In this document: one piece after another, positions 3,199 to 15,866 of the stretch
Layout: each line of letters starts with the position of its first letter
Numbering within the stretch: the stretch's first letter is position 1
Assembly: GCF_963668385.1 (NCBI RefSeq)
Contig: NZ_OY764327.1
Span: 3,506,501-3,570,500 of the forward strand
Source: an uncultured Carboxylicivirga sp.
Lineage (GTDB): Bacteria > Bacteroidota > Bacteroidia > Bacteroidales > Marinilabiliaceae
DNA: 64,000 nucleotides
Reading direction: 5' to 3'
Notes under the pieces: generated by a model
Told to the model about the DNA's origin: nothing
What the model saw: only the letters and a program-made list of their open reading frames with translations
The model's database searches: none
Position numbers and translations under genes: made by a program

Positions 3199-3259
3199 AC
3201 AAAAAGTGTTTTTAAATATTATTTATTGGTATTCAAATAGAAATATTCTTGATTTATCC

Positions 3260-3452
3260 CTCTAGCCGCGGGGCTTTTCATTTCTTGTCTTGATACAAGA
3301 AACGAAACAAAGAAAATCAAGGCTACATTGGAAATAAACTCTATTAATACATTCAACTTAAGTGCGGCCGGGCGATCTTCGAACAAGTTCTCAGCTTCCC
3401 GGTCTTACTAAAGTTCAATTTATTAATAATCATCTTTTCCAATGAGGCCAAT
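3260..3452. repeat. Structured dispersed repeat, copy 1 of 3 (inside the cobalamin operon)
   Basis: This fills most of the 325-bp gap between cbiG-cbiF and cbiJ-cbiD. Shared blocks with the copies at 12844 and 14552 are AGCCGCGGGG, CTTTTCATTTCTTG, AAAGAAAATCAAGGC, AAGTGCGGCCGGG, TTCCCGGTCTTACTAA and CCAATGAGGCC. Stems visible here are TTTCTTGT/ACAAGAAA (loop CTTGAT), CATTGGAAA/TTTCCAATG closing the distal half, CCGGG/CCCGG, and an apical GAAC-AA-GTTC hairpin. Relative to the other copies the stems change on both sides. It is the most diverged copy, with a mismatch in the ATTCAAC/GTTCAAT stem. It lies sense to the operon transcript. No coding function is seen. Confidence 0.8.
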
Positions 3453-3523
3453 TGCGAGATAGGTCTACTAATATTTAATCCATTTTTTGACTTTTGATTT
3501 TTCTCTTTTGACTTGAATTTATT

Positions 3524-5338
3524 TTGAAACAAAAAGCTAAAATACTCATATTCGGTGGTACCACCGAAGGGAAAAAAGCGGCATGGTTGCTCGATGCTAT
3601 TGGTGAATCATATATCTATTCAACCAAAACCAACAGTAATCATACGGTAAAGGGCAAACAGGTTAATGGTGCCATGAATTCGGAAGATATCGTTCGATTT
3701 TGTACTGATTATGAGATAAAAATGGTGATTGATGCGGCCCATCCTTTTGCCACCGAATTGCATCAGAACATACTGTTGGCTACTGAATCAATGAGTATCG
3801 AAACAATCCGTTTTGAAAGAACTTTTGCTGATTTAAGTCAAAATAAAAAGGTACGATTGTTTGATTGTTTTGAAGAACTAAGTACGGCCGTTTGCGAATC
3901 TCAATTCAATAACATTCTGGCGTTGACAGGAACACAAACTATCGATAAGCTAAAAGCAGTTTGGCAACAGAAAAATTGTATCTTTCGAATTTTGCCAACG
4001 CAATTGTCTTTAGATATTGCTTTGAGGAGTGGTATCGATCAAGATAAAGTGATTCAGGGATCGCCAGAAAAAGATGTGGCAAGTTTTTGTAAGTTGATGC
4101 TACATACCAAAGCCGAATTGGTATTAACCAAAGAAAGTGGAGAATCTGGTTTCTTTAACGAAAAGCTAGAAGCTGCCAAGGAGTTGGGGGTGCCCGTTTG
4201 GGTGGTTTCCAAGCCAACTTTTGAAGGTTATACTTATACTGTCAATTCTCAAAAAGCACTACAATCTTTAATCTATCAATTACGACGATCGATACTAAAA
4301 GAAGGTACAGAATTAAAGCATGGTTATACTACCGGAAGCTGCGTTACTGCAGCAGCCAAGGGGGCTTTTTTAACCTTGTTCGATGAGCGGCCACCACAGA
4401 AAGTAACTATTCAGATACCCAAAGGAGAGATGGTTGAATTTGTTACTTATTGTACCCTGATTTCACCAACAGAAGCTGTTTGTTCTGTAATTAAAAATGC
4501 TGGAGATGATCCGGATATAACGCATGGTGAAGAAGTAGGATGCAGAATTAGTTTGCAGTCGAAAGCTGGAATTCAGATTAAAGGAGGTAAAGGAATTGGT
4601 AAAGTAACTTTACCGGGTTTGGCTGTTCCGGTTGGTGAAGCGGCCATTAATCCGGTACCCAGACAGATGCTAACTAATATTCTAAGTTATCTGAAGGGTG
4701 AGTATGAATATGATGGAGGAGTGCTTGCCGAACCGTTTGTAACCAGGGGAGAAGAACTGGCAGAAAAAACCTTCAATCCCCGAATTGGAGTAATTGGGGG
4801 CATTTCTATATTGGGTACAACCGGGCGTGTTGAGCCCTATTCGAATGAAGCTTTTGTCGCTTCTATCAAAAAGCAAATTCAGGTGGCTAAGGCACTTAAT
4901 TGTACTAGTATTGTTCTAACATCAGGTCTTCGAAGCGAGAATAAAATGAAGACTATACTTCCTGAGCAACCACAACAGGCTTATATTCATTTTGGTAATC
5001 TGGTGGGCGATACTCTTGAATTGTGTGAGCAGGAAGGAATTGAAATAGCATATATTGGTTTGATGATTGGCAAAGCTATTAAGCTGGCCGAAGGGCATTT
5101 GAATACACACAGTAAAAAGGTTCAGTTCAATGCCGATTTTGCCTCTCAACTGGCTTTAAAAGCTGGCTATTCCGAACAAATAATTGAGCAGATAAAAGAA
5201 TTTAAATTGGCAAATGCCATCACCGGAATTATTCCTCTTACTAATGATGAACCCTTTTATAAAGAAGTTATTGCTCTTTGTAAAAAGCACTGTAAAACCA
5301 GGTTTAAGAAAGAGATACAATTTTATTTATTGCCATAA
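3524..5338 (+). CDS. cbiJ-cbiD: Fused precorrin-6A reductase / cobalt-precorrin-5B C1-methyltransferase
   Basis: A 604-residue fusion. Residues 1 to about 255 are CbiJ/CobK, the NAD(P)H-dependent reductase of (cobalt-)precorrin-6A: the N-terminal ILIFGGTTEGKKAA nucleotide-binding loop and the IDAAHPFA motif are visible. Residues from about 262 are CbiD, the SAM-dependent C1 methylase: LKHGYTTGSCVTAAAKGA from about 264, then GDDPDITHG and NPVPRQM. The start is unusual. An in-frame stop lies at 3509 and the first ATG would remove the GGTTEG loop, so the protein must begin at TTG 3524 (or ATT 3521), with no clear Shine-Dalgarno. It closes the cobalamin operon and is followed by a bidirectional terminator. 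Confidence 0.93.
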   Translation: MKQKAKILIFGGTTEGKKAAWLLDAIGESYIYSTKTNSNHTVKGKQVNGAMNSEDIVRFCTDYEIKMVIDAAHPFATELHQNILLATESMSIETIRFERTFADLSQNKKVRLFDCFEELSTAVCESQFNNILALTGTQTIDKLKAVWQQKNCIFRILPTQLSLDIALRSGIDQDKVIQGSPEKDVASFCKLMLHTKAELVLTKESGESGFFNEKLEAAKELGVPVWVVSKPTFEGYTYTVNSQKALQSLIYQLRRSILKEGTELKHGYTTGSCVTAAAKGAFLTLFDERPPQKVTIQIPKGEMVEFVTYCTLISPTEAVCSVIKNAGDDPDITHGEEVGCRISLQSKAGIQIKGGKGIGKVTLPGLAVPVGEAAINPVPRQMLTNILSYLKGEYEYDGGVLAEPFVTRGEELAEKTFNPRIGVIGGISILGTTGRVEPYSNEAFVASIKKQIQVAKALNCTSIVLTSGLRSENKMKTILPEQPQQAYIHFGNLVGDTLELCEQEGIEIAYIGLMIGKAIKLAEGHLNTHSKKVQFNADFASQLALKAGYSEQIIEQIKEFKLANAITGIIPLTNDEPFYKEVIALCKKHCKTRFKKEIQFYLLP

Positions 5339-5373
5339 TAAACAGAATTAAGTGTGGAGATGTACTTAAAATA

Positions 5374-5407
5374 AAAATGCCCGTAAGCAATGGCCTACGG
5401 GCATTTT
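5374..5407. terminator. Bidirectional intrinsic terminator between convergent genes
   Basis: A perfect 12-bp inverted repeat, AAAATGCCCGTA / TACGGGCATTTT, with a 10-nt loop. The A-rich left flank and T-rich right flank make it usable on both strands. It sits between the end of the cob operon (+) and the end of the PHP-protein gene (-). Confidence 0.85.
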
Positions 5408-5422
5408 GTTTTATTTGTTTAC

Positions 5423-8400
5423 TTATTGTCTAATAATTTTTTGAGTTGTCTTACCAGTTGTTTCGTTTATCATTACAAAATAAATTCCTTTTGAAAGATT
5501 CGATAAATCAATACTACAAGTGTTGTTGTTTGTGCTAATGGTTTTAACAACTGCACCGCTCATGTTGTAAATAGTGATGGTTTTAAAGTCATCATTCATA
5601 TTAGCAATGTTTATAAAACCATTGGTTGGATTGGGTGCAATGGTTATTGCCGATGTTCTAATTGGATCTTTATCGATAGCTGTTGGTGTTGTGGCAATAA
5701 ACACAGGGTTTGAATAGAACCATAAATCGTCAAAAGCTTCTTCGGCACCATCCATGCTCGATTCAAAATCAAGGATAGGATTGCCGTTTTCGTCCATTTC
5801 GTTTTCTTCATCCAGTCCTTTGTTCGATCCACGTAAACGAAGATACATATCGCCATCAACATCTAAAGTATAATCAATTTGTTTACGTCCGTTACCTAAA
5901 TCAGTCCAGGCAATGCTGGTAATGCCATTACCATCTGTAATTCCACCCACTGCATCAAAGCGTGCGATAACATGAGTTGTTGCAACTTCGGCAGTATTGT
6001 AATCTTCGCTCGAAGGATCAATTTTTCCACTTACTACACCGGCGATTAGGTCGATATGATCTAATTCAGGAGCATTGTAAGCTGTATATACGTTATTGTT
6101 GAATCCTTCAGGATCATTTACAACGATGGAAACATTTATCGTTTCGTCGGTTGTATTTAGTGTTTGCCCCATTTCAGCCGATGATGCATCATCCTTAACG
6201 GTGAATAACAATTCGTCGATTAAATCGCCGGTAACTATCCACGAGTTACCTGAGCGTAAACCATTGATAATAGATTGAGCGCTGGTACGGTCTTCTACAT
6301 ACGTGTATGTTTTTTGGTATTCACCCGGATAAAAGTCACCGCCTTCGTTATGAAAATCAGAGCTGGCAAATAACCACCATCCTCTACCTTCTGATAGAAG
6401 AGCATCCCACAATCCACCTACTTTAGCGGCATAAATTCCAGTACCTCCATATGTGCCACCTCCATCAGCAGTAGTGCTATATCCACCTCTGTTACCTGAT
6501 TTTTGATGACCCGACATGCTTTCAAAACCAAAGCATACATCAGGACCTGCATTATTCATATCGCGGAAATCAGCAACAGTGTATTTGCTTTTACGCTCGG
6601 GGTGAGCAGGTACCAGGTAACTATCGTGTTGATGATTGGATTGTAACCAGCTGATGGCTTCCAGTGTTTTTGCATGTCCCGAAGCTGAGCTTTTGGTCCA
6701 ACCCATATTTGCACCTCCGGTTTGGTCTCCATCACTGTTATCAAACATAAATTCGAATTGTGATAATGCATTCACATTAGGGGTTTGGCTAAATTGTTCT
6801 CCAAGTATTGCCACACTACCATGTTCGTGTCCCGGAACGTTCATTTCGTACCCTTGAACAATTACTTTATCGCCATAGGTATTACGAGCATCTAAAATTT
6901 CAGGGAAGGAATAATCCTGAATCATTTGCCAGCGCCACATGCTATAATAAGGATCGTTACCCGTTTGGTTTCCTTTTAATACAACGCTTGCATCTTCTGT
7001 CCAATAGTAGGTATTATTTTCGTCTGATGTGCGTCCATCGCGGTTGAAAGCTCCTCCATGCTCACTGTTTGCCCACCAATCTAATCCAAATTCATTGTTT
7101 TTAGCCATTACATGATCGATGTTAAACGATCCGTCGGTAAAAGTAGTATGCTGGTGAAAATCACCTTTTAGATAACCCGATTGCGCTATTTGTTTCACAA
7201 AAACAGGATTTGAGTAAAACCATAAATCGTCAAAGGCTTCTTCGGCTCCATTAAGACTTGATTCAAAATCGAGTAAGGGATTACCATTGGCATCGGTTTC
7301 GTTAGCTTCGTTCAAGCCTTTATTGGTTCCACGTAAGCGGAAATACATATTGCTGCTAATGGCTAATTGGTATGTTATTTTTTTACGACCATTGCCTAAA
7401 TCTTCCCAGGCAATACTGGTTAAACCATTTCCATCGATAACGCCACCATTAGCATCGAAACGCGCTATAACCTGAGTGGTGCTTACTTCGGGAGTATTGT
7501 AATTTTCATCAGAAGGGTTCAATTTATCACTTACAACGCCGGCAACTAAATCTATGTGATCAAGTTCAGGTGAATTATACGCTGTGTATGTGTTGAAATT
7601 GGTTCCATCAGGATCATTTACTATGATGGTAATGGTTACGTTTTGATCGAGTGTTTTTAATGTTTGGCCCATTGTGGCACCACTGCGGGCGTCGGATACA
7701 GTAAAGTTCAGTTCGTCGATTAAATCACCGGTAACAATCCAGGAATTACCAGAACGTAAACCGTTAATAATTGCTTTGGCATCCGATTTATCTTTTAAGT
7801 AAGTGTAGGTTTTTTGGTATTCTCCGGGATAAAAATCATCACCCTCACTATGAAAATCAGAACTGGCAAATAACCACCAGTTGCGACCTTCACTTAACAT
7901 AGCATCCCATAAACCACCAATTTTAGCTGCGTATACACCTGTTCCGCCATAGGTTCCTCCGCCATCAGCTGTTGTTTTATATCCACCTCTGTTATCATTT
8001 TTTTGATGACCAGGCATGCTTTCAAAACCGAAACAAACATCGGGTGCTGTAGTGTTCATATCGCGAAAATCGGCAATAGAATAGAGCTTCTTTCTTTCGG
8101 GGTGAGCTGGTATCAGGTAGCTGGATTTACGATGATTGGCTTGTAACCATGTTAGAGCTTCCAAAGTCTTTTCATGCCCCGATAGAGAACTTTTAACCCA
8201 GCCTTGGGCAGCACCTCCTGTTTGATCACCATCGTTATTATCAAACATATATTCGAATTGAGCTAACGCGTTAACATTCGGATCATTGTTGAATTGCTCT
8301 CCTAAAATGGCCACACTACCATGCTCGTGTCCTGGAACATTCATTTCGTATCCCTGAATAATAGTACGATCGTTGTAAGTAGAGCGTGCATCTAAAATTT

Positions 8401-8743
8401 CGGGAAAAGAAAAGTCGCGTAGCATTTGCCAGCGCCACATTTTGTAATTAGGTGCTTCGCCTGTTTGATCACCCAAGATAGTTACGTTTTCATCTTCGCT
8501 CCAATAAGTAGTTGTTGTTTCGTCAGAAGTACGACCGTCACGGTTAAAGGAGCCACCATGTTCGCTATTAGCCCACCAATCAAGGCCAAAAGCATTGTTT
8601 TTTTCCATTACATGATTGATGTTAAATGATCCATCGGTAAAAGTAGTGTGTTGATGGAAGTCGCCCTTAATATAGCCTTCCTGGGCAAATGTACTTCCGG
8701 AAATAAAAACTGCAATCAGCAGAGTTAAAGTAAAGTTTTTCAT
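5423..8743 (-). CDS. Secreted protein with two tandem PHP-type metal-binding modules and a T9SS C-terminal sorting domain
   Basis: 1106 residues. A signal peptide (residues 1-21, ending TFAQ) is followed by two near-identical modules, about 22-523 and 524-1018. Each starts G-[YI]-[IL]-KGDFHQHTTFTDGSFN, the HxH...D opening of PHP-domain phosphoesterases, and continues with WANSEHGG, GYEMNVPGHEHGSVAI, PAHPER and SSDFH, which would supply the other metal ligands. Each ends with a beta-rich part of about 150 residues (LRSGNSWIVTGDLIDEL onward). The last 85 residues form a type A T9SS sorting domain (ITIAPNPTNGFINI, MSGAVVKTI, LSKGIYFVMI, KTTQKIIRQ). It is probably exported to the surface or medium. 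The substrate is unknown: a phosphodiester or phosphomonoester is the family expectation, not shown here. It is transcribed alone. Confidence 0.85.
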   Translation of the reverse strand: MKNFTLTLLIAVFISGSTFAQEGYIKGDFHQHTTFTDGSFNINHVMEKNNAFGLDWWANSEHGGSFNRDGRTSDETTTTYWSEDENVTILGDQTGEAPNYKMWRWQMLRDFSFPEILDARSTYNDRTIIQGYEMNVPGHEHGSVAILGEQFNNDPNVNALAQFEYMFDNNDGDQTGGAAQGWVKSSLSGHEKTLEALTWLQANHRKSSYLIPAHPERKKLYSIADFRDMNTTAPDVCFGFESMPGHQKNDNRGGYKTTADGGGTYGGTGVYAAKIGGLWDAMLSEGRNWWLFASSDFHSEGDDFYPGEYQKTYTYLKDKSDAKAIINGLRSGNSWIVTGDLIDELNFTVSDARSGATMGQTLKTLDQNVTITIIVNDPDGTNFNTYTAYNSPELDHIDLVAGVVSDKLNPSDENYNTPEVSTTQVIARFDANGGVIDGNGLTSIAWEDLGNGRKKITYQLAISSNMYFRLRGTNKGLNEANETDANGNPLLDFESSLNGAEEAFDDLWFYSNPVFVKQIAQSGYLKGDFHQHTTFTDGSFNIDHVMAKNNEFGLDWWANSEHGGAFNRDGRTSDENNTYYWTEDASVVLKGNQTGNDPYYSMWRWQMIQDYSFPEILDARNTYGDKVIVQGYEMNVPGHEHGSVAILGEQFSQTPNVNALSQFEFMFDNSDGDQTGGANMGWTKSSASGHAKTLEAISWLQSNHQHDSYLVPAHPERKSKYTVADFRDMNNAGPDVCFGFESMSGHQKSGNRGGYSTTADGGGTYGGTGIYAAKVGGLWDALLSEGRGWWLFASSDFHNEGGDFYPGEYQKTYTYVEDRTSAQSIINGLRSGNSWIVTGDLIDELLFTVKDDASSAEMGQTLNTTDETINVSIVVNDPEGFNNNVYTAYNAPELDHIDLIAGVVSGKIDPSSEDYNTAEVATTHVIARFDAVGGITDGNGITSIAWTDLGNGRKQIDYTLDVDGDMYLRLRGSNKGLDEENEMDENGNPILDFESSMDGAEEAFDDLWFYSNPVFIATTPTAIDKDPIRTSAITIAPNPTNGFINIANMNDDFKTITIYNMSGAVVKTISTNNNTCSIDLSNLSKGIYFVMINETTGKTTQKIIRQ

Positions 8744-9212
8744 GAGTTTTTTTAAGTATGAGTTTAATAATCGTCACAAAGAACCTTTTTGTATATCAAC
8801 TGAAATATTCCTCTGTTTTAATTCTGTTTAATTCATTGTATAATTATCCGATAGTTTATTCAATATGATAATCTGATCTTTTATATTTATTCATATAAAA
8901 ATGGTATATAATAATGTTGTAATAGCATTGCAGTATTGATAATGCTTTAATGTACTAGCAAGTAAATAAGTAATGTTTTACCCGATATTAACTTTATGCT
9001 TACACAAAATAAAATTAAGACATAATTGAGGTTTAGACTACATTAGAGTTAGTTGTACAAAAAATATAGGAAAACTGAGGAGGTAGAAATTATTTTTTGT
9101 CATGGAGCAGACAACCATTTATACTAAAATATAATTCTATTTGATAGATGATTTGTTTGATTGCAACATCATCGTTTAATTTGAATTCAACTTAACTAAT
9201 AAGCTAAATAGA
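8744..9212. other. AT-rich divergent intergenic region
   Basis: 469 bp between the divergent PHP-protein gene (-) and the CPBP protease gene (+), so it should hold both promoters. It is very AT-rich. I found no full TTG/TAnnTTTG pair, hairpin, RNA gene or reading frame that I can support. Confidence 0.5.
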
Positions 9213-10010
9213 ATGAAAAGAAAATTGCCCGTATGGTTGGGAGCTACACTAATAATAGTTCTAACAGTAATTGTATTAATACTATCTGGAATTATAGCAA
9301 TGCCATTTTCAAATAAAGAACTTGGTGATGCAATTGGAGGTATGGTTGCAGCGTTGTGCTTATTTGGCTTAGTATATTGGTTTAGAGTAAAGCTGCATAA
9401 AGCAGATTTTGCCCAAGTAGGAATGACTTTTAACCTGAGAGATATTGGGATAGGCGCTATTATTGCACTGGTTATGATGAGCCTGGGTTTTCTATTATTA
9501 TTCCTTTTTGATCAGATAGAAATCTCCACTGTTAACTGGAGTGCAGGAAGCTTCTTATTGGCTTTTTTAAGTTATGTATTTGTTGGTTTTTACGAAGAAA
9601 TTGTATTTAGGGGATATATTCAAACATCTATAAGCGAATCGTTAAATCCTTTTTGGGGATTATTCATTAGCTCGGTATTGTTTGCTTTGTTACATGGATT
9701 AAATCCCGATTTAACTTTGGTGGCCATTTCAAATATCTTTTTAGCTGGTTTCTTTATTGGACGATTATATCAATTGTCAAAAAGCTTGTGGGCAGCCATT
9801 GGTTTTCATACTGTTTGGAACTTCACTCAAGGACCAGTATATGGATTTGCGGTAAGTGGCAATGATGGATATTCTCTACTAAAACAGCAAACATTGGGGC
9901 CTGACTATTTAACCGGTGGGATGTTCGGTTTTGAAGGATCGGCTATGTGTACTGTATTTTTTCTGGTAGTAATCGTTATTTCGTATCACAAGATGTTTAG
10001 CATTAAATAA
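9213..10010 (+). CDS. CPBP-family intramembrane metalloprotease (CAAX/Abi type)
   Basis: 265 residues with about eight hydrophobic segments. The family's catalytic motifs are all present: EE at 128-129 followed by R133 (YEEIVFRGY), H161 in LLHGLNPD, and H199 with N203 in GFHTVWNF. These place two glutamates and two histidines at the active site in the inner membrane. Bacterial members process prenylated or membrane peptides, give bacteriocin self-immunity or act in regulated proteolysis; which applies here cannot be told. A small membrane protein follows after 16 bp, probably co-transcribed. Confidence 0.88.
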   Translation: MKRKLPVWLGATLIIVLTVIVLILSGIIAMPFSNKELGDAIGGMVAALCLFGLVYWFRVKLHKADFAQVGMTFNLRDIGIGAIIALVMMSLGFLLLFLFDQIEISTVNWSAGSFLLAFLSYVFVGFYEEIVFRGYIQTSISESLNPFWGLFISSVLFALLHGLNPDLTLVAISNIFLAGFFIGRLYQLSKSLWAAIGFHTVWNFTQGPVYGFAVSGNDGYSLLKQQTLGPDYLTGGMFGFEGSAMCTVFFLVVIVISYHKMFSIK

Positions 10011-10026
10011 TTCATTCTTACTATTT

Positions 10027-10560
10027 ATGAATGCTATGCATCAAAATCAATTGCTGATAAAATTACCTATACCTATGCCTTTGGTTATTATTGGCTGTGT
10101 TTTAATTGCGGTGGGTTTAATGACCGGAATTAATTCGTGGTATGTAATGATACCAATTTTATTAGCAGGTATCTTTTGTATTTCGGTTAGAGATCGTCTT
10201 TTGTTTGATTTTAAAGAGAAAACACTTTATAAATACTCCTTATTTATTTTTTTGAAGAGAGGAGAATACATTAAGCTTCATCAAGCTGAATATATTTCGA
10301 TGATACCTGTAATACTATCTCAAAATTTGTATATGCGCGGGCCTACTCATACGTTAACAGATACAGCGGTGGTTACTAATCTAATATTCCCCAACCATAA
10401 GATTGTGAAATTATTTAGGATGAATTACGAAGCCAGTTTGAAATACAATAAGGTTATTTCTAATGGTCTTAATGTTAAAATTATGATTTCATCATCTGGT
10501 AATCATCAATGGATTGAACCTGAAAGTCAGAATGAAATCTCAAAAAAGGTAGTATCCTAA
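10027..10560 (+). CDS. Membrane protein of unknown function
   Basis: 177 residues, not recognised. Two adjacent hydrophobic helices (about 17-34 and 38-53) are followed by a soluble region of mixed strands (RDRLLFDFKEKTLYKYSLFIFLKRGEYIKL...) that could be a PH-like or similar small beta domain, which is a guess from pattern only. There is no cysteine-rich, nucleotide-binding or catalytic motif. It starts 16 bp after the CPBP protease gene on the same strand, so it may be a partner or substrate of that protease. A second in-frame ATG lies four codons downstream of the chosen start. Confidence 0.7.
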   Translation: MNAMHQNQLLIKLPIPMPLVIIGCVLIAVGLMTGINSWYVMIPILLAGIFCISVRDRLLFDFKEKTLYKYSLFIFLKRGEYIKLHQAEYISMIPVILSQNLYMRGPTHTLTDTAVVTNLIFPNHKIVKLFRMNYEASLKYNKVISNGLNVKIMISSSGNHQWIEPESQNEISKKVVS

Positions 10561-10610
10561 AGAAGTAAGTTGAAGTTAAATATCTCTATCGAAAAGTGAA
10601 GATAAATCAT

Positions 10611-10636
10611 AAAAAAAGCCGGCCCGTTGGCCGACT
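10611..10636 (-). terminator. Intrinsic terminator of the starch PUL operon
   Basis: Read on the minus strand: stem AGTCGGCC / GGCCGGCT (one T-G wobble), AACG tetraloop, then seven T. It lies about 30 bp after the GH97 stop codon and ends the susC-to-GH97 transcription unit. Confidence 0.85.
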
Positions 10637-10666
10637 AATTAAGAAAATCTATGTTTAACTGATCAG

Positions 10667-12736
10667 TTACTTTTTAATAAGCGAAAGGGCAAAGCCTCCG
10701 CCCGGAGCTAACCTTGTATCAAGGGTGTCTCCTTTTTTAACGTCTTTTGTTGTGATGGTATAAAGTGCTGGATTCAGATCCCAATCTGCATTGGCGTCAT
10801 CGGCATAAAGGGTACACTCGTAGGTAGCTCCTTCGTCCAGAAAATCCAGTTTTAACGATTCTTGTCTTTCATCACCATTGGTTACACCACCAATAAACCA
10901 ATTATCAGAGTGTTTGTCTTTGCGTGCAATGGTACAGAATTCACCAATTTCGGCATTCAGTACTTTGGTATCGGCCCAATCAACCGGAACATCTTTTATA
11001 AATTGTAAGGCATCAACACCTTCATAGTTCTCTGGTAAATCTGCCGCCATTTGTATAGGACTGTAGAAAACAACATATAAGGCCAGTTGATGTGCCAGCG
11101 TTGTTTTTACTCTATGTTTGAACGGGTAGTTTTTACGTTCCTCATCAGTCTTCAGCTTTTTATAATCCTTGTTTACAGAATTAAGCAATTGCAAATCAAA
11201 TATACCTGGAGTATAATCCATTGGTCCGGCTAAGTTGCGCGTGAAAGGTAATATGGCATCATGGTTCAAAGCATTACCATCACTCCAGGCATTAAACTCC
11301 TGACCACGCATTCCTTCACCACTCAACAGATTAGGGTAGGTGCGGTTCAGACCACTAGGTTTAATTGGTTCGTGAATATTAACAGCTATCTGATGTTTAG
11401 AAGCTAGTTCAACCGTATGATTGTAATGATTCACCATCCACTGATCGTAGTGGTAATGGTTTTCGATTTTACCAACATAGCCTGTTTTAACAGCATGGAT
11501 ACCATTATCCTGATAATACTGATAGGCGTCTTCCAATTGTCGTTCGTAGTTGGCTACCTGGGCTCCTGTTTCGTGGTGACCAATTATACCTACACCTTTT
11601 GAATCTGCGTATGCACTCAATTCTTCCATGTCAAAATCGGCATAGGGTTGTGTGTAATTAAAATTCACCCAACCGTTCCATCCCTTGTTCCATCCTTCAA
11701 CCAGTACACCTCCAAAACCGTTTTCAGCAGCGAAGTCGATGTAGCGTTTTACGTTAGCCGTGTTGGCTCCATGGTTAGGGCTCCCTTCCATTTCCCAGGT
11801 TGATTTTTTAACATGCATCTCCCACCAGATACCAACGTATTTCATGGGTTTTATGTAGCTGATATCTTCCAGTTTATTGGGTTCGTTGAGGTTTAAAATC
11901 AACGATGATTCAATTAAATCGCCTGCTTTTTTACCTACTGTAATGGTACGCCACGGTGTACTGAAAGGTAAATTAACTTTAGCTATCTCACCTTTTTTAC
12001 CGGCTGCAACCATGCCAATTTTTAAAGTTTGAGGATCGAGACATAACGATGATCCCGGATAGTTAACAATTGCTGCTTCATGAATACTCAAATAGTTACC
12101 TGCAGGAGTTTTCATGGTTACTGGTGTATTAAAGCCGGTTGAACATGCAAAATGATTGGCATGAGCTGATGTAGCAGATTGGTTACGCAACTCTTCGCTT
12201 ACTTCACTCAACTTGGTTGTTTGGTAAGTATATTCGTCATTATCCCAACAAGGAGCAATCCACCAGGTTTTATTGTCGGATACCATGTTAAATTGGGTTT
12301 CTTCACTGTTGATGGTTGCCTCTCCTTCGCCATATATAGTGTAGCGAAATCCTAAACCATCATTGTATACTCTGAAAGTAACATCAATTTGTTGATCATC
12401 TTTTTGAAGACTTAAAACTCCTTGATTGTAATTATTTTCAATTTCGGAATATTGTCCCCAAACTGGTTTCCAGTTTTCATTAAAAGAGCTAATGGTTAAA
12501 TCTTTAATCCTTACTCCGGAGCTTAAATCAATACCATTCATTTGTAGTCCAAGTGCGGCATCAGTAATCAATTTTTCTCCGTTAAAAATTACTGAGTAGG
12601 TTGCTTGACCTGCCTCGTTGACATTCACAAATACTTGCAGATTACCATCCGGCGAGTGAATGCTGTTATGCTTATCAGTACATGATGAGAGTACCAAAAC
12701 AAGCGTAAATAGTAAATAAAAAAGTTGTTTTATCAT
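10667..12736 (-). CDS. susB: Glycoside hydrolase family 97 alpha-glucosidase, SusB-type, lipoprotein
   Basis: 689 residues with a lipoprotein signal (Cys at residue 19, LSSC). It has the GH97 N-terminal beta-sandwich (SPDGNLQVFVNV...), the central barrel (YVGIWWEMHVKKSTWEMEGS) and a C-terminal beta domain. Three glutamates, E389 (GHHETG), E456 (NIHEPIKP) and E480 (RGQEF), have spacings of 67 and 24, very close to the base/base/acid set E439, E508 and E532 that I recall for Bacteroides SusB. The aspartate nucleophile of retaining GH97 enzymes is absent (KTGYVG instead). It should therefore be an inverting, Ca-dependent exo-alpha-glucosidase acting in the periplasm on maltooligosaccharides. It is the last gene of the starch PUL. 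Confidence 0.93.
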   Translation of the reverse strand: MIKQLFYLLFTLVLVLSSCTDKHNSIHSPDGNLQVFVNVNEAGQATYSVIFNGEKLITDAALGLQMNGIDLSSGVRIKDLTISSFNENWKPVWGQYSEIENNYNQGVLSLQKDDQQIDVTFRVYNDGLGFRYTIYGEGEATINSEETQFNMVSDNKTWWIAPCWDNDEYTYQTTKLSEVSEELRNQSATSAHANHFACSTGFNTPVTMKTPAGNYLSIHEAAIVNYPGSSLCLDPQTLKIGMVAAGKKGEIAKVNLPFSTPWRTITVGKKAGDLIESSLILNLNEPNKLEDISYIKPMKYVGIWWEMHVKKSTWEMEGSPNHGANTANVKRYIDFAAENGFGGVLVEGWNKGWNGWVNFNYTQPYADFDMEELSAYADSKGVGIIGHHETGAQVANYERQLEDAYQYYQDNGIHAVKTGYVGKIENHYHYDQWMVNHYNHTVELASKHQIAVNIHEPIKPSGLNRTYPNLLSGEGMRGQEFNAWSDGNALNHDAILPFTRNLAGPMDYTPGIFDLQLLNSVNKDYKKLKTDEERKNYPFKHRVKTTLAHQLALYVVFYSPIQMAADLPENYEGVDALQFIKDVPVDWADTKVLNAEIGEFCTIARKDKHSDNWFIGGVTNGDERQESLKLDFLDEGATYECTLYADDANADWDLNPALYTITTKDVKKGDTLDTRLAPGGGFALSLIKK

Positions 12737-12843
12737 TTTTAAAAGTTTTAGATAAAAGGTAAAAAGAAAGACGCAATAATATTTTTTTGTAATAGTTTTT
12801 ACTGTTGATTTTGAATCTTCATTTATTAAAGATTGAATTTCCT

Positions 12844-13044
12844 CCGCTCAAGCCGCGGGGGCTTTTCATTTCTTGCCTTGATGCAAGAAACGGAAACAAA
12901 GAAAATCAAGGCAACATTGGATATGACAATTGTTTTTTTGTTGAACCTAAGTGCGGCCGGGTGATTTTCGAGCAAAGCTCTCAACTTCCCGGTCTTTCTA
13001 ATGTCCAACTTCATAACACTTATCATATCCAATGAGGCCGAATT
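12844..13044. repeat. Structured dispersed repeat, copy 2 of 3 (between the GH13 and GH97 genes)
   Basis: It occupies most of the 321-bp gap between two starch PUL genes. Stems: TTTCTTGC/GCAAGAAA with loop CTTGAT; a perfect 12-bp pair CATTGGATATGA (12915-12926) / TCATATCCAATG (13023-13034); GTTGAAC/GTCCAAC (one non-Watson-Crick position, G-U if read on the minus strand); GGCCGGG/CCCGGT; apical GAGC-AAA-GCTC. It shares the conserved blocks with the copies at 3260 and 14552. It lies antisense to the surrounding operon, whereas copy 1 lies sense to its operon. Overlapping short reading frames on both strands here are not credible genes. Confidence 0.85.
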
Positions 13045-13057
13045 CCCTAATTTCATA

Positions 13058-14428
13058 TTATTTTTTCAGGATTAAAAATTCGTATGGTGATAGAGTTATT
13101 GTTTCTCCTATTGTGTAGGATGCATCATTCATCAGGTTGATTCGTGTATCAGAAACAAAGACATCAGGTACTGAGAATGAAATATTGGTATTTTTTACAT
13201 TAACTATAACCAGAATATTTTCTTCATCTATCGAACGTGTAAAACACATTACATTATCATCTTCGAACGTTTCAAGTGCACCTGTTTTCATAGCTTCAAA
13301 TGAGTTGTATATATCCATTATTTTCTGATACGACTGATAGATATCCTGATTATTATTCCAGCCTACATTTACAAAATTGAAAAAGTTAATGGTTGATGAG
13401 TAACCTACTTCTTGTGAACTGTACATTAGCGGAACTCCCCCTAATGTGGTTGAAATAACGTAGGCAGAAAGAGCTCCCTGTTGACTATTATACTTTGTAA
13501 TCGGACTGTTTTCTGAAGCACGATCGTGGTTGGTAGTAAAACGTAGTTTCTGTTTGCCTTCCGGTATCTGACCAAATTCATTTTGATGAGACGCATATAA
13601 ATCAGCAGTACTTCCGTTTCCGGCATAAAGTCTTTCCAGAACATCGCAGAAATTCCATCCGTAATCTAAATCAAATCCAGCCTGAAGATTGATAGGATCT
13701 GTTCCTTCTGCCAACATTATCACAGTGCGTCCTTCCTGCATATTTTTTAACTCATAAATGGCATCGCGCCAAAAGCCAGCAGGAATCCAGTCGGCAGCAT
13801 CGCAACGGAAACCATCCACATTAGCCTCGCGTACCCAGTATTTCATGGATGATATCATTTCATTACGCATTTTGTGATTGTTATAGTTGAGATCTGCTAC
13901 GTCGGACCAGTTAGTACCAACCGGAGGAATAATATTTCCATCGGCATCTTGTGTATACCAATCTTTATGATTTTTTACCCACTCGCTATCCCATGAGGTA
14001 TGATTTGCAACCCAGTCGAGTATAACAGCTATTTCTCTGTTGTGAGCTTGTTGAACCAGTTCTCTTAGTTCATCCAGTGTTCCGTATTCGGGTTCTGGTG
14101 CAATGTAGTTTTTAATACAATACGGTGAACCAATGGCATTTTCAATACCTTGTTCGTTTATCGGCATTAACCAAAGTACATTTACTCCAAGCGATTTTAT
14201 CTCATCCAAACGATCAGTAATGGCATTGAAAGAATTATCAGAAGCAAAAACCCGTTCATTGGCTTCGTACATTACAATGTTATTAATTGATGGTACTTTG
14301 TCAAAAGGTTTGGCATAGAATTCTTCATTTTTTTGAGGTTCGTCAGGGGTAGGTGTATCGTTGCTGCTACAGGCCTCAAATAGTGACAATGTCATTAATA
14401 ATCCGGCCAGAATTACTATCTTCTTCAT
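13058..14428 (-). CDS. susG: GH13 alpha-amylase, surface lipoprotein (SusG-like)
   Basis: 456 residues from the chosen ATG at 14428, which gives a clean lipoprotein signal (MKKIVILAGL...EAC, Cys at 20). A longer in-frame start at 14470 would put 14 extra residues before it. GH13 motifs are complete: DWVANHT (region I), VDGFRCDAAD with nucleophile D210, LAEGTDP with acid/base E241, and TTNHD with D302. A beta-sandwich closes the C terminus. It is shorter than Bacteroides SusG (about 690 residues), with no room for the CBM58 insert. It should cut starch at the outer surface. The gaps on both sides hold copies of the structured repeat, unlike the tight spacing elsewhere in the operon. Confidence 0.92.
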   Translation of the reverse strand: MKKIVILAGLLMTLSLFEACSSNDTPTPDEPQKNEEFYAKPFDKVPSINNIVMYEANERVFASDNSFNAITDRLDEIKSLGVNVLWLMPINEQGIENAIGSPYCIKNYIAPEPEYGTLDELRELVQQAHNREIAVILDWVANHTSWDSEWVKNHKDWYTQDADGNIIPPVGTNWSDVADLNYNNHKMRNEMISSMKYWVREANVDGFRCDAADWIPAGFWRDAIYELKNMQEGRTVIMLAEGTDPINLQAGFDLDYGWNFCDVLERLYAGNGSTADLYASHQNEFGQIPEGKQKLRFTTNHDRASENSPITKYNSQQGALSAYVISTTLGGVPLMYSSQEVGYSSTINFFNFVNVGWNNNQDIYQSYQKIMDIYNSFEAMKTGALETFEDDNVMCFTRSIDEENILVIVNVKNTNISFSVPDVFVSDTRINLMNDASYTIGETITLSPYEFLILKK

Positions 14429-14551
14429 AAAAGTATTGTTATTACACAAGTTATATTTGATTTCGAACACGCGGTAAAGTGATATTATTTAATGTGTTCG
14501 AAATAAGTTTAATGTCGGTTAATACCTAAATAATCTTTTACGTGATTTTCA

Positions 14552-14751
14552 CCGCTCAAGCCGCGGGGGCTTTTCATTTATTGTATCAAGACAAGAAATG
14601 GAAACAAAGAAAATCAAGGCTCCATTGAGAATGACTCTTGTTTAATTGTTGAACTTAAGTGCGGCCGGGTGATTTTCGAGCGAGGCTCTCAACTTCCCGG
14701 TCTTACTAATGTTCAACTACGTAACACTCCTCATTCTCAATGAGGCCGAAT
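14552..14751. repeat. Structured dispersed repeat, copy 3 of 3 (between the susF-like and GH13 genes)
   Basis: It sits in the 352-bp gap upstream of the GH13 gene. Stems: TTTATTGT/ACAAGAAA (one mismatch), perfect 12-bp CATTGAGAATGA (14623-14634) / TCATTCTCAATG (14731-14742), perfect GTTGAAC (14648-14654) / GTTCAAC (14711-14717), CCGGG/CCCGG, and apical GAGC-GAG-GCTC. The long stem has a different sequence from copy 2 yet pairs perfectly, so the two arms have changed together. It has the same window orientation as the other copies and is antisense to the PUL transcript. Confidence 0.85.
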
Positions 14752-14780
14752 AGGTATTATAGTGATTATCCAATTTGTTC

Positions 14781-15866
14781 TCAGTTACAATCAACTACCG
14801 TATAGGAATCAGAGGTTATCTCGAGACATACATCTTCGGTAATAGACATCGAAAGATCGAATTGACCACCATCGCCTCCGGTTCCGTTATTGAAAATGAC
14901 GTTACCCACAGTTTGGCCTGCAGGAACGCTTACGCTACACCAGCCTTCGGCATCGGGAGTGACTGTTTGTCCGGGCCAAGCTCCAAACGTTTCACCAACC
15001 GGATCGCCGCCCCATGCATAAATATTGGAAGAAGCCCAGTCGCTACCTATATATTTCCAACGTATGGTAATTGGTGGTGTTGGGCAATCGGCAAGGGTGA
15101 AGGTGCCATTATCGGTGTCAAACTCATAACAGGCACTTTCAGTAGGATCAACTAAAAAATCGAATTGCTGACCTACTCCGTTATCATTCATGATAAGGTT
15201 GATAGGACGACTTGTAGGTACGGTGAAAGAATACCATCCTTCGGCATCTGCTGTTAAAACTTCACCCGGCCATCCTCCGTATGCCTCTTCTTCGCCCCAG
15301 GCATACACAGCAAATTCTGCCCAATTACCTGTTGTTTGCTTAAACCTGATGGTTAATTCTTCAGGTTGCCAGGTGGCTACCGGAGATACAACTACAGGTA
15401 TTGAATTGGAAATGATTGAATCGGAACCTCCTTCATAAGAAGCTACTATGCGAAATTCAATATTTTGTGTTTCTTCAAAATTTTCATCTGCTAAACTTTT
15501 AGCAACTTTGTATAATGCGCTTGAGTAAATATCTAAGAATAGCTCATCTGTAGAATTTATTTCTACTTTATTTACGAAGTCATTGCTTAGTATTCCTGCT
15601 TCTAAAGTATAGCTTATGTCTTGTACATCAACAGGCAAACCATTATCGTATGAGATACGAGGTCGTGTCCATGTTGTTCGGAACAAAAAGTCACCATCGT
15701 CACCTTCTTCCGGAGCTTCCAATGTAAATTCATTTTCAGTTAAAGCATTCAGTACCGGGTTTGTCGTTAAGATGTCTCCACCAGCCGAGCGTTCGTATGT
15801 TTCTTCGCAGGATGACATGATGGCTGCAAGAAATACGAATCCAATTATATATTTTATTTTATTCAT
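14781..15866 (-). CDS. SusF-like starch-binding outer-membrane lipoprotein with two CBM26-like modules
   Basis: 361 residues with a lipoprotein signal (Cys at 20, MSSC). Residues about 35-165 match the SusE/SusF N-terminal Ig-like domain (LTENEFTLEAPEE, FRTTWTRP). Two related C-terminal modules follow, about 170-265 and 270-361. Each carries the pattern [TI]IR[FW]K...W...YAWG...GGWPG or FGAWPG..., T-DAEGW-[YC]-S-[FV]-[TS]-VP, N...FN/MNDNG, QFDFLVD or QFDLSMS. This resembles starch-binding CBM26 rather than the modules of classic SusF. It should hold starch at the cell surface beside SusCD. The domain name is pattern recognition and was not searched. Confidence 0.82.
   Translation of the reverse strand: MNKIKYIIGFVFLAAIMSSCEETYERSAGGDILTTNPVLNALTENEFTLEAPEEGDDGDFLFRTTWTRPRISYDNGLPVDVQDISYTLEAGILSNDFVNKVEINSTDELFLDIYSSALYKVAKSLADENFEETQNIEFRIVASYEGGSDSIISNSIPVVVSPVATWQPEELTIRFKQTTGNWAEFAVYAWGEEEAYGGWPGEVLTADAEGWYSFTVPTSRPINLIMNDNGVGQQFDFLVDPTESACYEFDTDNGTFTLADCPTPPITIRWKYIGSDWASSNIYAWGGDPVGETFGAWPGQTVTPDAEGWCSVSVPAGQTVGNVIFNNGTGGDGGQFDLSMSITEDVCLEITSDSYTVVDCN

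Follow-up and report, generated by a model that had tools for sequence, protein, structure and literature searches.

The three repeat copies in the window, by which we mean the whole 64,000-nucleotide stretch analysed, appear to be small mobile DNA repeats encoding an elaborately folded RNA, and this RNA appears to end in a triple-stranded knot. We think it fairly probable, from sequence comparison, that the repeat is a MITE-like non-autonomous element whose cargo is a structured RNA acting in cis on the host mRNA. Intergenic repeats of high copy number are commonly regarded as inert or as plain hairpins; in this genome, about 35 copies encode a covarying RNA.

The repeat family and its insertions

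An initial annotation of the window had described three copies and quoted their stems, and both copies and stems are indeed present where it placed them. It had proposed a covariance-model search, which finds a dispersed family at 35 places in the window's own genome (E ≤ 1.1e-5) and up to 45 matches in each relative's genome, in line with its tentative mention of dispersed relatives in other Bacteroidota. With copy 3 as blastn query, 49 matches occur across the 6.27-Mb genome, some of them self-complementary matches on the opposite strand at the same places. The window copies are a real repeat family and not a chance resemblance. Their features are as follows.

3200..3483, minus strand: copy 1 inserted element, approximate extent; no counterpart at the orthologous site of sister genome G001 (11 bp instead)
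3274..3451, minus strand: copy 1 structured RNA core (model R1, E 8.7e-41 in own genome)
3272..3324, minus strand: copy 1 3' pseudoknot (model R2, E 2.4e-15; loop in register)
3258..3276, minus strand: copy 1 G+C-rich 3' hairpin region beyond the pseudoknot, the 5' end of the initial annotation (from the sequence)
12776..13055, minus strand: copy 2 inserted element, approximate; no counterpart in G001 (16 bp instead)
12862..13041, minus strand: copy 2 structured RNA core (model R1, E 8.2e-41)
12860..12913, minus strand: copy 2 3' pseudoknot (model R2, E 1.5e-13)
14570..14749, minus strand: copy 3 structured RNA core (model R1, E 2.3e-38)
14568..14621, minus strand: copy 3 pseudoknot, loop inverted relative to the G001 orthologue (model R2 weaker, E 6e-7)
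14471..14782, minus strand: copy 3 intergenic stretch, 38 bp in G006 instead (orthologous-site comparison)

Judged by orthologous sites, the window copies are insertions, because the matching places are empty in sister species. The stretches missing from G001 measure 284 bp for copy 1 and 280 bp for copy 2, and copy 2 is missing from sister genome G006 as well. The place orthologous to copy 3 is occupied in G001 and empty in G006, a comparison that does not fix the element ends, as the BLAST break points coincide with gene ends.

Clearer ends are seen in relatives from the sister genomes G005 and G007, where the terminal inverted repeats (TIRs) CAATNGCGTCCTAAA...TTTAGGACNNNATTG bound 24 distinct elements (27 rows minus 3 duplicate rows), 16 of which carry the pseudoknot by a simple pattern. 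A 9-bp target duplication with at most one mismatch accompanies 16 of the 24, against 1 of 193 with swapped flanks. Two pseudoknot-bearing loci of the own genome, L034 and L036, have related ends and perfect 9-bp duplications, as read by eye. The same left TIR belongs to an IS4-type transposon in G007 (L138, with DUF4372 and DDE_Tnp_1), whose reading frame is interrupted and whose right end was not seen; for the 402-aa open relative in G006, the inverted-repeat test found none.

In the window-type copies, the outer closing helix or TIR scored 17.5 versus 17.1 with swapped flanks, exact 9-bp repeats occurred in 5 of 35 copies versus 117 of 1000 swapped, and 12-mers with at most two mismatches in 11 of 35 versus 364 of 1000 swapped, without excess; GTCC/GGAC ends were present in none of these 35 copies (25 own, 10 from G001). 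An exact 12-bp repeat is found in L006 and L101 only among the 35 (14 of 5000 when swapped), and a TTGTAC-like motif lies 4-5 nt before GGCC in some window-type copies only. The window copies may have moved by a cut-and-paste route comparable to that of the TIR-bounded relatives, with ends that would by now be too decayed or too different to name the enzyme.

The initial annotation had pointed to a RAYT/IS200 transposase, and a REP-like element is extremely improbable here. REP elements, as characterized in the relevant part of PMC3733652, are 20-40 bp long with GTAG or CGTC tags, are associated with RAYT transposases and have been proposed to be RNA elements. The window repeat resembles them in being dispersed, intergenic, palindromic and of high copy number, and Y1 transposases (PF01797) are common in these genomes (50 of 60 relatives). 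However, it is far longer, its young relatives have TIRs and 9-bp duplications, and it shows no RAYT association, since Y1 counts do not follow repeat copy number: G014 has seven Y1 transposases and no repeat match, and G024 six repeat matches and no Y1.

Nor did the initial annotation name any known RNA family, and Rfam 15 agrees, with 0 matches within the window at gathering scores. Allowing E values up to 10, copy 3 matched only the snoRNA snR161 (17.6 bits, cut-off 50). At gathering scores, eight other repeat loci gave only a tRNA and an Acido-Lenti-1 match, both outside the modelled core. It is very improbable that the repeat is a fragment of an ordinary gene, an IS end, a riboswitch, a ribozyme or another catalogued RNA: we found no point in favour, and Rfam has no match at gathering scores for the repeat in the window or in the eight other loci. 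A riboswitch is further disfavoured because the genes flanking the three window copies belong to unrelated pathways (cobalamin synthesis; starch use). In the literature search, none of the listed titles or abstract openings describes the window repeat and sequence strings gave no relevant match; most subscription journals and all preprints lay outside this search, so that the absence is weak.

The folded strand and its covariation

Across 82 model-aligned matches (76 distinct rows), changes on both sides of a pair occur in 589 cells, compared with 155.7 ± 12.5 after shuffling, which bears out the strongly covarying structured family first proposed. In the same 82 matches the covariation score is 0.456, compared with 0.141 ± 0.006 shuffled and at most 0.096 with the 3' partners slid, in an alignment that leans towards structure because it was fitted to the structure.

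The strand of the fold, on the other hand, had to be reversed. When the long-stem arms of 24 own copies are scored by identity only, the strand first read contains 31 A.C and 3 G.U oppositions, whereas the reverse strand of these copies contains 31 G.U and 3 A.C. Copies from other genomes, again on the reverse strand, have 58 G.U and 16 A.C (37 of 38 copies). RNAalifold gives -48.2 kcal/mol on the reverse strand, where 28 of 47 pairs covary, versus -33.0 kcal/mol and 19 of 38 on the strand first read, the two alignments having been built separately. To go by these wobble counts, the folded strand is the opposite one, that is, the minus strand of the window.

On this strand, the closing stem consists of GGC..GCC plus a variable stem of 9-12 bp. 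It encloses an inner variable stem, followed by a G+C stem that is conserved, as are the bases of its internal loop. The architecture also includes an apical hairpin that can be exchanged and, at the 3' end, an H-type pseudoknot.

The 3' pseudoknot and its loop 1

What had been taken for a 5' hairpin is stem 2 of this pseudoknot and lies at the 3' end of the RNA, an end that the initial annotation had missed. Considered alone, the pseudoknot is 93.0% paired versus 81.3% in the control, with 97 versus 28.9 both-side cells. Pairing is kept in 93.5% of the main part of stem 2 and 77.3% of its outer part, and in 99.2% of stem 1, for which the evidence is thin because the rows were selected by CTTGA/TCAAG, four of the six pairs being invariant and one having both-side changes. 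A rule-based search recovered L027 and L039, which have a different stem 1 that still pairs.

Loop 1 follows the purine strand of stem 2 in a fixed parallel register. The best match is at offset 0 in 40 of 41 distinct pairs, with 6.46 triples versus 5.61 ± 0.14 when loops are swapped (maximum of 2000 swaps, 6.12). A second set, made of copies found later by model or BLAST, has offset 0 best in 24 of 25, with 6.64 triples versus 5.83 ± 0.13 swapped (maximum 6.32). Nine new pairs from pattern-chosen loci, where the pattern itself fixes loop 1 and stem 2, are all at offset 0 and show no excess of triples (6.22 versus 6.33 swapped); a mixed validation set including such loci gives 33 of 34, and 6.53 versus 5.38 ± 0.16. 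The parallel register exceeds the antiparallel one (6.46 versus 5.51) in the fixed-register test, which is the only test that separates the two, a longest-run triplex test without register finding them equal (5 versus 5 distinct pairs).

This register is as a major-groove triple helix of U.A-U and C+.G-C triples would require. Telomerase RNA, SAM-II and preQ1-II contain natural H-type pseudoknots with major-groove triples, and the proposed principle is the same here, loop 1 being U-rich and placed in the major groove that stem 2 forms; the knot of the present family differs in sitting on a dispersed mobile element. The family is a candidate for a natural triple helix in bacteria, one whose base triples are legible in the sequence.

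The hairpin loop of copy 3 is inverted relative to its orthologue, which should break stem 1, and the rule-based search finds no pseudoknot in this copy. In the orthologous pair L021/L115, the apical hairpin became a perfect palindrome. Both cases look like template-switch footprints, template switching having been reported to make concerted stem changes and loop inversions (in the portion of PMC8794818 concerned with such changes). One orthologous pair has 22 differences over 178 positions of the RNA versus 2 over 250 upstream, which looks like replacement and not constrained evolution.

Such footprints bear on an explanation at the DNA level, in which the arms covary as a single-stranded DNA hairpin or through template switching during replication, and the RNA has no function. 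The loop inversion, the palindrome, the reported effects of template switching (PMC8794818, same portion) and the mobility of the element all fit it, and G.T wobble in single-stranded DNA could still yield the observed asymmetry. Nevertheless, we consider it unlikely: template switching is expected to be strand-blind, yet G.U prevails over A.C on one strand in both sets of copies, arm-to-arm copying does not produce the register of loop 1 with the stem-2 purines, and the copies have a sense bias. It is the asymmetry and the in-register loop that point to selection acting on a single strand in its folded form. The initial claim that both-side changes mean a preserved structure is made too strong, when it stands by itself, by the template-switch footprints; covariation would also be expected if folding were needed in the moving copy only. 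The family may serve as a test case for telling RNA selection from template-switch mutation.

Gene context and spread of the pseudoknot

The copies lie tens of bases past a stop codon, and their orientation bias is modest on each side. Relative to their neighbours, 19 of 28 copies in the own genome (G000) have the same sense as both, 5 the opposite sense to both and 4 are mixed; the corresponding same-sense and opposite counts are 12 and 4 in G001 (n=21) and 11 and 2 in G007 (n=21), the G000 and G001 counts including shared orthologous copies. With the sides taken apart, the upstream gene agrees in 20/28 (p 0.036), 15/20 (p 0.041) and 14/19 (p 0.064) cases in G000, G001 and G007, respectively, and the downstream gene in 22/28 (p 0.0037), 14/20 (p 0.115) and 15/21 (p 0.078).

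Since in-sense copies between co-directional genes outnumber the others, read-through from the upstream gene would be the main source of the RNA. Its rigid pseudoknot could then act in cis on the host mRNA, most likely as an exonuclease block or a processing boundary. To go only by position and orientation, such a role is probable. Through such a cis effect the insertion might be tolerated or be of use, as with ERIC and NEMIS, though the fold is a different one. ERIC, NEMIS (Correia), RUP and YPAL, as covered in the pertinent part of PMC2229807, are RNA-folding MITEs with long stem-loops in other bacteria, and for ERIC the same source reports transcription together with the neighbours and an effect that depends on orientation. 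The window repeat is likewise a small non-autonomous intergenic repeat, and several of those families have TIRs and duplications (PMC2229807, same part); it differs from what is described there in being a multi-helix RNA with a pseudoknot of covarying loop register, joined to different domains in several lineages.

The pseudoknot is the constant part. Of 296 genomes sampled from the phylum, 71 (about a quarter) contain it, and it is also present on a plasmid of Ilyobacter (Fusobacteriota). It persists where the domain upstream of it and the 3' hairpin have changed, and TIRs of two different kinds are found around it. Among plasmids and phages, a 301-base query had no match, whereas the 58-base pseudoknot query matched two plasmids and no phage; the exact pattern had 0 matches in IMG/VR. 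With one module constant amid changes in the remaining RNA and in the element ends, the family is an evolutionary experiment at hand.

These features would also suit an RNA or RNP handle working in trans, in which the 3' pseudoknot of a mobile RNA family with exchangeable 5' domains serves as the binding site for a protein, from the host or a transposon, by which the RNA is spread or used, effects on mRNA being secondary. The recurrence of the knot across the phylum and on the Fusobacteriota plasmid, its constancy beside variable domains and the two TIR kinds speak for this handle, but no protein gene tracks the repeat among the TnpB-type zinc ribbon, Y1 and IS4-type transposases, and we regard it as rather doubtful. 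Omega-RNA of IS200/IS605 TnpB elements is a structured RNA at a mobile-element end; unlike in those systems, the TnpB zinc ribbon (PF07282) is missing from all six repeat-bearing genomes searched (13 to 45 repeat matches each), and it is found in 6 of 14 control genomes. Y1 counts are, as above, uncorrelated. The triplex pseudoknot could quite plausibly, if a little short of probably, be the signature of a cross-phylum mobile-RNA superfamily (Bacteroidota, Fusobacteriota, and Clostridium if a record label is right), which would swap 5' domains and ride different transposon vehicles; the pseudoknot would be the functional part common to its members and would either protect the RNA or recruit a host protein that is itself conserved.

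Integron-like arrays were considered and rejected, as the L296 clusters look like repeated element copies and not gene cassettes (ORFs of at least 90 aa). The clusters in G154 and G330 were scanned for the pseudoknot.

Repeat family and folding strand

The three repeats proposed in the initial annotation are all present at its positions; their RNA is read from the minus strand:

3260-3452, minus strand: copy 1, with cobalamin genes on either side, both in the opposite sense to it
12844-13044, minus strand: copy 2, surrounded by starch-use genes
14552-14751, minus strand: copy 3, surrounded by starch-use genes; its pseudoknot is at 14568-14621

The genome to which the window belongs, a single contig of 6.27 Mb, has 49 blastn matches to copy 3. 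We ran the covariance-model search suggested earlier with R1, a model of the structured core (178 positions, 47 pairs) built on the reverse strand from 24 of 30 own-genome copies fetched, and it found 35 places in this genome at E <= 1.1e-5. The impression that no known RNA family is involved agrees with Rfam, which has no match in the whole window at gathering scores; copy 3 alone, relaxed to E 10, gives a single sub-threshold snoRNA match.

We aligned the long-stem arms of 24 copies mutually by identity alone, a procedure that does not favour wobble pairs. On the strand folded in the initial annotation, the arms show 625 Watson-Crick pairs, 31 A·C, 3 G·U, 190 other combinations and 48 gaps. 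Since each G·U reads as A·C on the complementary strand, it is the reverse strand that folds. Of 38 copies in a second set, drawn from other genomes, 37 contribute 58 G·U versus 16 A·C on the reverse strand (p about 1e-6, assuming independent cells). RNAalifold predictions, compared across two separately made alignments, agree with reverse-strand folding (-48.2 kcal/mol with 28 of 47 pairs covarying, against -33.0 kcal/mol and 19 of 38). A hairpin acting at the DNA level is one of the main rivals to the RNA function proposed below.

The covarying stems noticed earlier are borne out by 82 model-aligned matches from the own and related genomes (76 distinct rows), in which 93.9% of cells are paired versus 76.3% after shuffling, 38 of 47 pairs change on both sides (589 such cells versus 155.7 +- 12.5 shuffled), and the covariation score is 0.456 versus 0.141 +- 0.006 shuffled and at most 0.096 for slid versions, all figures biased towards the structure because the alignment was fitted to it. 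The identity-only strand test is free of this bias.

Pseudoknot and loop register

In 5'-to-3' order, the RNA has GGC..GCC closing pairs flanking a small internal loop, a variable stem of 9-12 bp and a second variable stem. The G+C stem that comes next and its internal-loop bases are conserved, and the apical hairpin has several alternative sequences. 3' of this domain lies a pseudoknot composed of stem 1 (CUUGAU/AUCAAG), loop 1 (UUUCUUUG) and stem 2 (UUUCUUG/CAAGAAA), followed by a 3' hairpin of several kinds. What had been called a 5' hairpin is indeed a paired stem, but a misplaced one, corresponding to pseudoknot stem 2. In three loci insertions interrupt the pseudoknot region (L023 1390-1638, L116 571-774, L118 585-775), the insertion in L116 and L118 being an additional G+C-rich hairpin within stem 2.

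The pseudoknot stems are 93.0% paired versus 81.3%, with 97 both-side cells versus 28.9, support that comes mostly from stem 2 because the rows were selected on an invariant CTTGA/TCAAG in stem 1. The purine strand of stem 2 is mirrored in loop 1. Parsing succeeded for 86 of 96 copies and gave 41 distinct pairs, each of a loop 1 with its stem-2 3' strand; in 40 of these, precisely offset 0 is the best parallel register. Triples average 6.46 there, 4.66 at the next-best offset, 5.51 in the best antiparallel register and 5.61 +- 0.14 when strands are swapped among copies (maximum of 2000 swaps, 6.12); such register figures are not probabilities, because related copies are not independent. In most pairs a loop-1 C shares its index (3, 5, 6 or 9) with a purine-strand G, and the exceptions, such as L020, L029, L054, L056, L085 and L098, each carry a mismatch.

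A further set places 33 of 34 new distinct pairs at offset 0. We split it, as part of its loci were preselected by a pattern fixing loop 1 and stem 2. The 25 pairs obtained by model or BLAST (24 at offset 0) have 6.64 triples versus 5.83 +- 0.13 swapped (maximum 6.32), and add C/G positions at index 2 (L289) and 7 (L285); offset 0 is also best in all nine pattern-chosen pairs, whose triples do not exceed the swaps (6.22 versus 6.33), as preselection would lead one to expect. A run-length test without register did not separate parallel from antiparallel.

Mobility and divergence between orthologues

We compared the orthologous sites across 13 genomes from the same genus. In the sister genome, G001, 3200-3483 (covering copy 1) and 12776-13055 (covering copy 2) are absent, with 11 and 16 bp in their places, and copy 3 is present; copies 2 and 3 are missing from another genome, G006. 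Element ends read from near-identical copies in a third, G007, are CAATAGCGTCCTAAA ... TTTAGGACAACATTG. The first-end sequence, searched in five genomes (20 loci fetched), yields elements of 270-392 bp bearing terminal inverted repeats (TIRs). Of 24 distinct TIR-bounded elements from G005 and G007, 16 are flanked by a 9-bp target duplication that has no more than one mismatch (swapped flanks, 1/193). With a simple pattern we detected the pseudoknot in 16 of the 24. It finds none in L121, L123, L124, L129, L133, L134, L135 and L137, same-TIR MITEs that may hold other cargo or a variant pseudoknot. In the own genome, the pseudoknot-bearing L034 and L036 show, by eye, perfect 9-bp duplications and related ends.

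One G007 locus, L138, has the same left end, followed by a transposase that matches DUF4372 (E 4.9e-22) and DDE_Tnp_1 (E 1.8e-25); the reading frame of this transposase is interrupted, and the right end was not seen. The IS4-type transposase lies at positions 684-1704 of L138, and an ORF in opposite orientation follows it. G006 has an open 402-aa relative (82% over the first 137 residues), around which we found no inverted repeat; relatives in G059 are 50% identical and have their own TIRs, and the search of the own genome found only distant ones (26-27%). Our search did not define element ends for the window's own repeat type, so an IS4-type link is only putative for its three copies. The RAYT/IS200-like transposase suggested earlier was tested and found unsupported, as was a TnpB link.

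The sequence evidence shows a mobile element whose fold is structured, single-stranded and specific to one strand, and includes a pseudoknot; that it is a mobile structured RNA with both pseudoknot and triplex, taken as one claim, is very probable.

The RNA differs at 0 to 4 positions in 8 of 11 orthologous pairs. In L021/L115 (1498-1674 and 609-790), 15 of 177 positions differ, mostly because the apical domain became a perfect palindrome, a quasi-palindrome correction with a new G+C stem. The hairpin loop of copy 3 is inverted relative to its G001 orthologue (L071), which looks like a template-switch footprint within the pseudoknot; PMC8794818 describes footprints of such kinds. Some of the concerted change in the arms can thus be of mutational origin, but template switching does not readily explain the strand asymmetry and loop register. 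L015/L113 differ at 14 of 177 RNA positions (flanks, 40/250 and 73/313), and L007/L104 at 22 of 178 versus 2/250 upstream, which suggests that at this site one element took the place of another.

Gene context and spread among genomes

For 28 of the 35 own-genome places, considered in RNA orientation with ORF-based gene calls, 19 lie between two same-sense genes, 5 between two opposite-sense genes and 4 are mixed. The corresponding counts for same and opposite sense are 12/21 and 4/21 in G001, which overlap those of the own genome through common orthologous copies, and 11/21 and 2/21 in G007. Twenty own copies share the sense of the upstream gene, and 17 of them start 13 to 45 bases past its stop codon. 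The element would be transcribed by read-through, and its RNA may act in cis on mRNA decay or processing. The model is ERIC, for which PMC2229807 reports co-transcription and an orientation-dependent effect; by this analogy, the cis role on its own is a tentative proposal, less likely than not. Besides the DNA-level hairpin, the main rival is an RNA that acts in trans or as a protein handle.

The related repeats suspected in other Bacteroidota do exist. R1 matches 26 of 60 relatives including the own genome (12 of 45 genera; up to 45 matches), and R2, a model of the 3' pseudoknot with 32 places in the own genome at E <= 1.4e-5, has matches in 71 of 296 sampled genomes across the phylum, from 39 of 140 genera. 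The exact pseudoknot pattern occurs in at least 119 stretches of named genomes. Among the 80 matches listed are Carboxylicivirga linearis FB218 and records titled Clostridium sp., Bacillota, Psychrilyobacter and Ignavibacteria, all four metagenome bins. The Bacillota (L164) and Ignavibacteria (L208) bins are likely misbinned, since their upstream domain is that of Bacteroidales bins; the Clostridium-titled copies have an upstream domain of their own. Firmer than the bin records is Ilyobacter polytropus DSM 2926 (Fusobacteriota), whose finished replicon pILYOP01 has a pseudoknot match with the loop in register, the surrounding 401 bases matching 19 places in the replicon. Upstream domains vary among lineages, and one containing GAGCGAAGCGAG is common to Ilyobacter and the window's phylum.

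Within that phylum and Ilyobacter, we also observe the pseudoknot joined to other RNA domains (L034, L036, L056-L061, L125, L129, L285, L293), several with GTTTGAG / GAGCGAAGCGAG and CGTAG motifs. In three loci of other genomes (L296, L286, L206), pseudoknot repeats are densely clustered or arranged in tandem, spaced about 270-510 bases. A minus-strand stretch of L055 in G059 (1913-1958), lying some 100 bases downstream of a pseudoknot element, matches the Rfam Acido-Lenti-1 RNA (39.8 bits against a cut-off of 37).
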